From contig CASFDA010000031.1 in assembly GCA_949293335.1 (NCBI GenBank), positions 62,001 to 126,000 on the forward strand: a stretch of 64,000 nucleotides of DNA, in the 5' to 3' direction. The first letter of the stretch is position 1; the number at the start of each line of letters is the position of its first letter. The notes beneath the pieces are model-generated. The model did no database searches. It was not told the origin of the DNA and worked only from the letters and a program-made list of their open reading frames with translations. This DNA is from an uncultured Spirochaetales bacterium. GTDB lineage: Bacteria; Spirochaetota; Spirochaetia; Sphaerochaetales; Sphaerochaetaceae. Below, piece after piece: positions 41,497 through 43,573 of this stretch. The position numbers and the translations under genes were made by a program.

Positions 41497-41700
41497 TCAA
41501 TTTCTTTTCCATTCATCGGAAAATCGGAAAGCCCACATCGTATCTCCAGCAAGGTATCTTCTCCTGTATTCTCTGACTGTATATGCATTGAGGCCAGTAA
41601 GAGTTGCTGTCTTCTTATACCCACACCCTTCTTCGAAATACTTCAGACATTCTTTACGTTTCTCGTTTGGTATCCATTCTCTCTTCAAGCTTCTATTCAC
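41497..41700 (-). CDS. small HTH protein of lipoprotein cassette 1
   Basis: A 67-residue basic protein with a helix-turn-helix (KKTATLTGLNAYTVREYRRRY) like the first open frame of IS3-type transposases, but no transposase core follows. It shares 37 consecutive identical residues with the 69-residue protein at 42765. The DNA is also strongly conserved there. The start is GTG at 41700, whose bases overlap the stop of a tiny 11-codon frame (MVPPLSNQTRR) preceded by AAGGAGG. It follows the lipoprotein gene by 66 bases, as its paralogue follows the second lipoprotein. A regulator of the cassette is possible. Confidence 0.7.
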   Translation of the reverse strand: MNRSLKREWIPNEKRKECLKYFEEGCGYKKTATLTGLNAYTVREYRRRYLAGDTMWAFRFSDEWKRN

Positions 41701-41766
41701 CTTCTAGTCTGATTTGACAAAGGAGGCACCATATGGCACCTCCTTAAAGTGACTTGATTTGAAAAA

Positions 41767-42540
41767 TTAGCCTTCTATAGTTGTCGTTGGCCAACTTCCA
41801 CTTCCTGGATTCTGCTCTGTTGTAAGATACCAAGTCTGATTTGTGTATCCAGTAGGAGCATCAATCTTTGTCAAAACGTCTACACCACTTCCTGTTACGG
41901 TATTGCCATCTTCTCTTCCATCAATCCAAAGAGCGGGAACTTCAGTATTGGAGCTCTCGATTGTTCCATTGACTGTCAAAGAAGATGCATCAAGACCAGC
42001 AGCTGATCCTTTGCTCACTTCGATTCCGCCCCAGATATTCTCTCCGACAGTGATTGTTCCATTCATTGTCACAGAAGAACCATTGACCTGTACGCCTGCC
42101 TGCATGCCTTTTACTGTCACGTTATCGAGAACAACACCTGTGGAATCATAGATCTTGATTCCGTATTCACCTTCGTTCCATTCATTTGCCGCTTTATTAC
42201 CAGTTCTTTCGCCTTCAACTGTGAGATTCTCGATTCTCACATTATCGCCAGTGACAAGAAGAGCGGCTTTGTCAGATGCGCTTGTTCCAGTAGTCGGTGT
42301 CACAATTGTGAGTGTCTTTTCATTACCGTCAAGAGTAAGGCCATCCGAAAGAACAACCTGTGATGCGAGGGCAATAGGTTCTTCTGCATCGATAACACCA
42401 AGTGTTCCATGCTCGCCACTTGCAAACGCAACAAGGTCGTCAAAGTTCGTGATGGAATAACTAGAATTTGTCTCATTGTTACATGCGCTGAATGCAAACA
42501 GCACAAGCAGAGAAAGAAGAGCAATAGCTATTTTCTTCAT
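41767..42540 (-). CDS. lipoprotein with beta-helix-like repeats (cassette 1)
   Basis: A lipoprotein of about 257 residues. The signal peptide ends in the lipobox FSAC, followed by an Asn-rich tether. The body reads as a right-handed beta-helix: repeated VVLDNVTVKGMQAGVQVNGSS and VTMNGTITVGENIWGGIEV type turns, Thr/Val/Asn-rich. This suggests a surface or periplasmic scaffold. GAAGGAG precedes the ATG at 42540. The leader carries a nine-G tract that is a candidate phase-variation switch. The signal peptide resembles that of the second cassette, but the mature parts do not match. Confidence 0.75.
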   Translation of the reverse strand: MKKIAIALLSLLVLFAFSACNNETNSSYSITNFDDLVAFASGEHGTLGVIDAEEPIALASQVVLSDGLTLDGNEKTLTIVTPTTGTSASDKAALLVTGDNVRIENLTVEGERTGNKAANEWNEGEYGIKIYDSTGVVLDNVTVKGMQAGVQVNGSSVTMNGTITVGENIWGGIEVSKGSAAGLDASSLTVNGTIESSNTEVPALWIDGREDGNTVTGSGVDVLTKIDAPTGYTNQTWYLTTEQNPGSGSWPTTTIEG

Positions 42541-42566
42541 TTCTGTTTCTCCTTCTGAATCAGTTA

Positions 42567-42602
42567 ATAATAGGCTACCCCCCCCCGGTAGATTTTTGTC
42601 AA
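42567..42602 (-). promoter_or_regulatory. cassette 1 leader: TTGACA, CTACC/GGTAG repeat, nine-G tract
   Basis: On the minus strand TTGACA (42597-42602) is followed by CTACC, a run of Gs and GGTAG. The uninterrupted tract is nine Gs (complement of 42578-42586). TAGCCT starts 19 bases after TTGACA and TATTAT 24 bases after it, so slippage in the tract would change promoter spacing. The same layout occurs at 43538-43573. Confidence 0.6.
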
Positions 42603-42764
42603 CTGAAATTCTTCGAAGAAGTGTCTTTCTCAAGCTAGAGTCTTCTCTCTAAGTAATAAATTCTCGGATTTAAGAAAGACTTGATGATGATTATTTCATA
42701 CAACATATAAGAAAAACAATTTTTACTAAAACTATCAAATCGAACAGATAAAAACTAAGAACCC

Positions 42765-42974
42765 TCATCTGTTAGACTTTTCCATTTCATCAGAAAACCG
42801 GTAGGCCCATTTGATATCTCCGGAGATATATCGTCTCCTGTATTCCCTGACTGTATATGCATTGAGGCCAGTAAGAGTTGCTGTCTTCTTGTATCCACAC
42901 CCTTCCTCAAAATACTTCAGACATTCTTTTCTCTTTTCTGCGGATACCCAGTGTCGCTTGAGATCTGTTTTCAT
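42765..42974 (-). CDS. small HTH protein of lipoprotein cassette 2
   Basis: A 69-residue basic helix-turn-helix protein, the paralogue of the one at 41497, with an identical 37-residue core and differing ends. It starts with ATG at 42974, 55 bases after the second lipoprotein gene, with only a weak GAGAG upstream. The gap contains an AGAGGTACCTCT palindrome followed by TTCTTTTT on the minus strand, which could act as a partial terminator. There is no transposase partner. It could be a DNA-binding regulator or a remnant of a mobile unit. Confidence 0.7.
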   Translation of the reverse strand: MKTDLKRHWVSAEKRKECLKYFEEGCGYKKTATLTGLNAYTVREYRRRYISGDIKWAYRFSDEMEKSNR

Positions 42975-43029
42975 CAGTGTACTCTCTTAAAAAGAAAGAG
43001 GTACCTCTCATGACTAGAAGAATGTCAGA

Positions 43030-43512
43030 TTATTCTACCGGATTGAATGTACTCTCAGCAAAAGAAAGCGTGATCAAATCTGTTTCCTCGCCATCTACAG
43101 GAGTATATGATACTTTGAAAGTACTTTTCTTAGCTTCTTCCGGATCTGCATCAAGGAAAAGCACCCATTCATCATCAACAGCGCTCTTTTCACCATCACC
43201 TACGACTTTTACAGCAGCTCCTTCCGGAACATCAAATACTACGCAAACATAGTAACCAGCAGTTTCTCCTGGAACTCCCCATTTCTCGAGTGTTGCATAA
43301 TCAAATGTTCCATCAACGCTTCCATCTTCATAAATGACTACATCACTCTGAAAATCAGAGACCTTTGTTGTGTCTGAGAAAATAGTGATGTCAATAGTAT
43401 CATCGCCAGCCTTTGCAACAGCTGACTCAGCTGGAGTTGATCCAGAGTTATCACAAGCGACAAAACCGAAAATTACACAAAGTGAAATAAGAGCAATAAG
43501 AATCTTTTTCAT
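43030..43512 (-). CDS. lipoprotein (cassette 2)
   Basis: A 160-residue lipoprotein with signal peptide and lipobox FVAC followed by DNSGS. The mature part is acidic and beta-rich, with a VVIYEDGSVDGTF segment, CVVFDVPEGAAVKVVG and KVSYTPVDGEETDLITLSF, reminiscent of a small Ig-like or jelly-roll domain. No family is recognised. GGAGGAG precedes the ATG. It has the same leader motif and signal-peptide type as the first cassette lipoprotein and is likewise followed by the HTH gene. Confidence 0.72.
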   Translation of the reverse strand: MKKILIALISLCVIFGFVACDNSGSTPAESAVAKAGDDTIDITIFSDTTKVSDFQSDVVIYEDGSVDGTFDYATLEKWGVPGETAGYYVCVVFDVPEGAAVKVVGDGEKSAVDDEWVLFLDADPEEAKKSTFKVSYTPVDGEETDLITLSFAESTFNPVE

Positions 43513-43537
43513 TGCTTATCTCCTCCTGAATTAGTTA

Positions 43538-43573
43538 CTAATAACCTACCCCCACCCGGTAGATATTTGTCAA
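43538..43573 (-). promoter_or_regulatory. cassette 2 leader: TTGACA and CTACC/GGTAG repeat, interrupted G tract
   Basis: The minus strand reads TTGACA (43568-43573), CTACC, GGGTGGG, GGTAG (43546-43562 region) and TATTAG. Spacing to the downstream AT-rich hexamers (19 and 24 bases) equals that of cassette 1. The G tract has the same length but is broken by one T, so it should be stable. Confidence 0.6.

Follow-up and report, generated by a model that had tools for sequence, protein, structure and literature searches.

Tandem lipoprotein–HTH units of a gut spirochaete belong to a genus-restricted cassette family with poly-G promoters and replaced mature domains

A 64,000-nucleotide stretch of DNA from a 1.92-Mb genome (G000:C31:62001-126000; hereafter the window) carries two tandem units, both on the minus strand, whose ends resemble each other and whose centres encode unrelated proteins. 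What kind of unit is this, and how does the centre come to vary between constant flanks? The order leader, lipoprotein gene, gene for a small HTH protein, given in a preliminary description of the locus, is seen in both units. Their features are as follows, the hairpins being read from the sequence.

Unit A
43546..43573, minus strand: promoter, with TTGACA at 43573-43568, CTACC, and an interrupted G tract, GGGTGGGGG, at 43557-43549
43548-43543, minus strand: -10-like TAG of TAGGTT, 19 nt after the -35 hexamer
43030..43512, minus strand: lipoprotein of 160 aa, signal peptide MKKILIALISLCVIFGFVAC, lipobox Cys20
42994..43009, minus strand: putative hairpin GAGAGGTACCTCTTTC followed by a T run, between the lipoprotein and HTH genes
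42765..42974, minus strand: HTH protein of 69 aa, predicted three-helix HTH

Unit B
42575..42602, minus strand: promoter, with TTGACA at 42602-42597, CTACC, and an uninterrupted G9 tract at 42586-42578
42577-42572, minus strand: -10-like TAG of TAGCCT, 19 nt after the -35 hexamer
41767..42540, minus strand: lipoprotein of 257 aa, signal peptide MKKIAIALLSLLVLFAFSAC
41722..41743, minus strand: putative hairpin GGAGGTGCCATATGGTGCCTCC, between the lipoprotein and HTH genes
41497..41700, minus strand: HTH protein of 67 aa, GTG start

At the DNA level the two units are 85% identical in the leader and 79% in the HTH gene (83% in its core), and identity between their mature parts is that of unrelated sequence. 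The lipoproteins have 14 of 20 signal-peptide residues in common and mature parts without a BLAST match to each other, and the HTH proteins share a run of 37 consecutive identical residues (EKRKECL...YRRRY), all of which agrees with the preliminary description. The leader pattern has exactly two matches in the window and none in 100 shuffled versions, even with three mismatches allowed. The mature lipoprotein of unit A matched no known Pfam family; that of unit B is predicted to be beta-rich by a structure model of low confidence.

A search of the same genome with one HTH protein returned four good copies, two of which lie beyond the window on contigs C13 and C4. Extending the search to the window's genus (Ca. 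Ornithospirochaeta and relatives) yielded 197 copies of the HTH gene in 30 of 48 genomes, with 1-16 per genome; a protein search of 52 genomes from other genera gave none, and among 395 genomes of the class a profile search confined the family to one of 133 genera. Named records with the HTH belong to Candidatus Ornithospirochaeta and to uncultured Spirochaetaceae/Spirochaetales metagenome bins. Knowledge of the genus, a group of gut spirochaetes, comes almost entirely from such bins, those of the chicken gut among them (PMC8035907). The viral contigs searched held no HTH relatives, and a phage origin of the family was rejected for this reason. A lipoprotein gene lies directly upstream in the same direction, usually at a gap of 10-100 nt, in 117 of the 146 HTH loci read; 20 of the remaining 29 are cut by a contig start, which leaves nine and puts pairing at 117 of about 126 testable HTH genes (~93%). 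Thus, the search through the genome and its relatives that had been suggested as a check brought to light a dispersed family with constant flanks around a variable lipoprotein.

One of the nine, the copy on contig C13 (G000:C13:58891-59061; L081:3995-4180), is preceded by a secreted-type ORF (L081:3351-3941) that has neither a signal peptide nor a poly-G promoter. It looks like a decayed or rearranged unit in which the hairpin and the HTH gene were retained. Contigs of the bins often stop near the boundary between the constant and variable parts of a unit, and HTH or leader matches stand at contig ends in G018 (C6:116 and C48:116), G004 (C35:26 and C49:26) and G044 (C12:15 and C30:15); such ends are what repeats would produce, or strains that differ in the centre they carry at one locus.

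Within a genome the constant parts of the units are alike. Median identity between units of the same genome is 61% for signal peptides and 73% for HTH domains, and 76% of the corresponding pairs of mature parts have no BLAST match. In 39.5 of 72 cases, with 4.2 expected, the nearest neighbour by HTH belongs to the same genome; by mature part this is so in 18 of 63. The left conserved block begins about 150 nt ahead of the lipobox codon and ends just past it; the right one begins about 20 nt ahead of the HTH start and ends some 180-260 nt beyond it. Iterative profiles place 83 of the 117 mature parts in one very diverged superfamily; this superfamily accounts for most of the long ones, which display mosaic local matches and some Ig-like domains, and the short mature parts, the window's two included, form separate small families. 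Near-identical centres hardly ever occur twice in one genome, although assembly may hide such copies.

Replacement of the centre at a fixed locus was sought by comparing the flanking DNA of units between genomes and keeping pairs in which a flank was at least 93% identical. Five syntenic pairs were found, with flanks 93-98% identical in DNA, all drawn from three related MAGs (G018, G032 and G038). Their leaders and signal peptides, where present, are near identical. The mature parts have no BLAST match in four pairs, and in the fifth they are 39% identical over a fifth of their length. In L187/L188 (L187 and L270 are two labels of one unit) and in L226/L213, near-identity extends through promoter and signal peptide, drops to background no more than a few codons from the lipobox cysteine, and resumes at 96-100% at a point 10-30 nt before the HTH start, the HTH genes themselves being 96-100% identical. 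The mature lipoprotein has thus been replaced while its surroundings stayed the same. The reductase adjoining the window's own units has its nearest homologue at 65% identity, too distant for a sister-genome test of replacement. In L213 and L226 a tandem repeat with a unit like AAATCTTGCCGGTTGTAAGTTCC is present about 100-200 nt after the HTH stop, and its content differs between the genomes.

As a check on misassembly, the longest exact repeat of each unit flank was determined among loci read from the same genome. These repeats measure 20-26 nt for L188, 23-24 nt for L270, 47 and 23 nt for L226, and 62 and 28 nt for L213. Since none exceeds 62 nt, wrong joins at both ends are unlikely for these four units. 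The three other syntenic pairs have one readable flank, or flank sequence that recurs exactly over about 80-110 nt at another place in the genome, and only L270/L188 and L226/L213 are robust against misassembly. Exchange is not universal, since the pair from G025 and G042, with flanks about 80% identical, has kept a homologous centre (82% at the amino acid level). No donor of the swapped centres was identified among the loci compared; for the swaps examined between G018 and G032, the best cross-locus match (L270 of G018 against L213 of G032) is 36% identical.

Exchange also takes place inside the mature region and between loci, as follows from a mosaic in G024. There L073 and L157, two loci of one genome with unrelated outside flanks, have in common at about 95% the leader, the signal peptide and some 600 nt; they then diverge, and come together again at about 97-100% in the HTH gene.

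The leader deserved separate attention. Upstream of the lipoproteins, TTGACA is followed after about 10 nt by a G tract (mostly 8-11 nt, also 5-6) and then by TAGNNT; the pattern TTGAC.-N-G>=5-T is matched by 91 of 109 unit promoters. Most promoters have 17-21 nt between TTGACA and TAG, with a mode of 19; the usual -35/-10 spacing of 18-21 nt is longer than the classical 17 nt. The -10-like element TAG.(C)T, assigned from sequence only, has its final T in 77 of 83 promoters. A standard sigma-70 scan did not flag the leaders, because it allows just 16-18 nt of spacing. What the 91 family promoters conserve is the -35 hexamer, the G tract and the TAG. CTACC occurs in only 8 of them, so the CTACC/GGTAG palindrome, put forward at first as the defining motif of the leader and as a possible operator for the HTH protein, had to be abandoned as an incidental inverted repeat. 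Of the 81 G runs of at least 8 in 609 kb of unit loci, 70 lie at unit promoters, 6 before other lipoproteins and 5 elsewhere; 76 thus stand before lipoproteins. Between alleles of one locus the tract measures 9/10, 9/8, 9/10 and 9/11, and a fifth pair is invariant at 6; these lengths are read from MAGs, in which homopolymers may be imprecise. Units with a short or interrupted tract exist, unit A of the window among them. On the coding strand of L188, L270, L213 and L226, about 40-60 nt before TTGACA, there is a CTACCCTCC(C)TTTTT sequence, an inverted copy of the promoter's GGGGGGTAG; in L188 and L270 it is accompanied by a G6 tract that is the same in both genomes.

The HTH gene and the poly-G promoter coexist in 29 of 48 genomes, counted without regard to kinship; one has the HTH only, three the promoter only and 15 neither. 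Promoters of similar layout drive lipoproteins in genomes without the HTH, other genera of the family included, and the promoter type is therefore more widespread than the cassette. The preliminary description had named independent occurrence of HTH gene and leader as a sign against a cassette system. This is borne out for the promoter, which precedes lipoproteins lacking an HTH partner both inside the genus and in other genera, so that leader and HTH are not strictly linked; it is not borne out for the HTH gene, which almost never occurs without a lipoprotein. Poly-G lipoprotein loci lacking the HTH include L238 and L257 (G054), L231 (G058), L236 (G003), L234 (G010) and L246 (G045).

These promoters are like the poly-G promoters of Treponema pallidum (tp0126, tprL, tprE/G/J), which also serve spirochaete outer-surface genes. 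A poly-G tract in the promoter affects tp0126, where it lies between -35 and -10 and works best at a spacing of 17 nt, and tprL, where the length of the tract differs within isolates and alters output (PMC7864442). Given this precedent, a phase-variable promoter would be the natural reading of the leader, one absent from the preliminary description. As in tp0126, the G tract of the units stands between -35 and -10 and its length varies between close relatives. The products of the T. pallidum genes are porins or OMPs, not lipoproteins, and we know of no HTH partner gene in that system, nor of a cassette family with exchanged mature domains. The units also resemble the Vlp genes of Mycoplasma hyorhinis, which have a conserved 5' region and signal peptide and a divergent mature part, although the Vlp genes lie in one cluster and are not known to be followed each by an HTH gene. 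Like them, each unit has a conserved signal peptide, a divergent mature part and its own promoter. The Vlp products are variable surface lipoproteins, each gene having its own promoter in which a homopolymeric tract switches transcription, and their size varies by internal repeats (PMC10502178). The tract there is poly-A and here poly-G, and here the mature domain is replaced, whereas there internal repeats change its size.

Surface variation by recombination between conserved and variable segments is familiar from Borrelia vls and Neisseria pilE, which use one expression site and silent donor cassettes. In contrast, nearly all units here carry their own promoter and start, and no silent archive of that type was seen among the units read; gene conversion from promoterless cassettes was set aside on this ground. 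Conserved 5' ends in front of diverse lipoproteins characterize the Mycoplasma vpma/vsa shufflons as well. For Vpma, this arrangement is documented (PMC11868660). In the shufflons, site-specific inversion is carried out by a linked recombinase; here the unit has no recombinase and the loci are dispersed. The system belongs with the phase- and antigen-variation families, and as far as we searched the open-licence literature, both the pairing with an HTH and the replacement of whole mature domains at fixed loci are undescribed.

The HTH protein is under purifying selection (median dN/dS about 0.11) and is confidently predicted to fold as a three-helix HTH, its core having block means above 90. 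Its matches to profiles are weak and generic, to HTH_23 and IS630-type domains, with the window's copies below the cut-off. Structural matches are likewise weak, to the DNA-binding domains of IstA and Mos1 and equally to sigma region 4 and LuxR-type domains, and the protein has no catalytic domain. A plain IS3 OrfA fragment, which the preliminary description had named among the findings that would overturn it, is contradicted by the intact genes, their ~93% pairing with lipoproteins and the dN/dS; a remnant of IS3 or IS630 type was discarded for the same intactness and selection, together with the weak and generic character of the HTH matches. Our leading guess is that the protein acts on the units as a regulator or a recombination accessory, since it is retained at one copy per lipoprotein and, as a constant flank, shares the lipoproteins' fate. 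A bolder version, which we hold as tentative and rather doubtful, makes it a dedicated factor of cassette exchange or exclusivity that would bind a site in the constant flanks and promote replacement or let only certain units be expressed. If so, each lipoprotein gene would travel together with a DNA-binding protein belonging to its own diversification system, and we know of no described system so composed.

Taken together, we regard as likely a family of genus-restricted, self-contained cassettes that vary the surface in two layers, poly-G switching and exchange of mature domains. Each cassette comprises, in order, poly-G promoter, signal peptide, mature lipoprotein, hairpin and HTH gene. Slipped-strand changes in the G tract would alter the -35/-10 spacing and make transcription of the lipoprotein stronger or weaker. 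Recombination between the constant flanks, the leader with the signal peptide on the left and, on the right, the HTH gene together with its start region, would replace the whole mature lipoprotein and leave locus, promoter, signal peptide and HTH gene in place; some breakpoints fall inside the mature region. Ordinary homologous recombination may suffice for this, possibly with imported DNA as donor, and the replacement probably serves to change the cell surface. Diversification by duplication and exchange, as originally proposed, is thus upheld in so far as the family is dispersed and centres are swapped at fixed loci, the palindrome having dropped out.

The swapped loci also bear on whether the units might be ordinary paralogous, phase-variable lipoproteins, which duplicated and diverged fast with an HTH regulator carried along and no dedicated or frequent exchange. 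The HTH-less poly-G lipoprotein promoters of other genera, the single very diverged superfamily behind 83 of 117 mature parts and the unchanged centre of G025/G042 all speak for such a history, yet divergence alone cannot erase the similarity of a centre whose surroundings at the same locus, namely gene start, HTH gene and neighbours, stay 93-100% identical. Contradicted already at two loci at least, this account strikes us as improbable. Still less credible, indeed very nearly dismissed, is that the wrong centres were joined across repeated leaders and HTH genes during assembly of the metagenome bins. Many HTH matches and leaders do lie at contig ends, and some flanks have exact repeats of about 110 and 80 nt, but the 20-62 nt repeats of L188, L270, L226 and L213 are too short to mislead an assembler at both ends, and the swapped centres in these units are full-length, in-frame lipoproteins.

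The similarity of the HTH to transposase domains raises another possibility, namely that the protein is a reduced DNA-binding protein of transposase type and that a recombinase acting in trans moves or swaps the lipoprotein cassettes. The sharp edges of units at different loci of one genome would fit, as would the HTH_23, IS630-type, IstA and Mos1 matches, weak as they are, and the retention of the HTH gene with nearly every lipoprotein. However, the unit lacks a catalytic domain, the viral contigs searched hold no relatives, the structural matches to sigma region 4 and LuxR-type domains are equally weak, the edges, inspected by eye, have no inverted repeats or target duplications, and homologous recombination accounts for the exchange at fixed loci. 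We therefore consider a mobile element unlikely and prefer two-layer cassettes exchanged by homologous recombination. Such a family would rank among the main sources of surface variation in these gut spirochaetes, with replacement of whole domains at fixed loci on top of the poly-G switching known from Treponema. It raises the question of why a gene for a small DNA-binding protein accompanies each exchanged lipoprotein one to one. The lipobox codon and the ribosome-binding site of the HTH gene mark recombination breakpoints, a natural record open to testing in other lineages.

Many units of the main clade (L210, L275 and L079 among them) have an inverted repeat where the HTH gene begins, which pairs the ribosome-binding site with codons 6-10, the arms being GGAGGACG, GGAGGTGGAT and GGAGGGA on one side and CGTCCCTC, CATCCCTC and TCCCTCC on the other. 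Sequestration of the ribosome-binding site is not claimed, as the stems mostly have 5-6 pairs and are absent from the window's units. The interval from the lipoprotein stop to the ribosome-binding site of the HTH gene has a predicted hairpin at z<-2 in 88% of units, against 42% of control gene ends. Few of the family's hairpins carry the T run of an intrinsic terminator, and the structure may attenuate or protect the transcript. When compared with integrons, most centres do end in a sequence-variable hairpin, in which no attC core was recognised by eye. Despite the variable sequence, CCTG...CAGG recurs in 35 of 108 units against 0.9 in shuffles, as in L270, L213 and L174.
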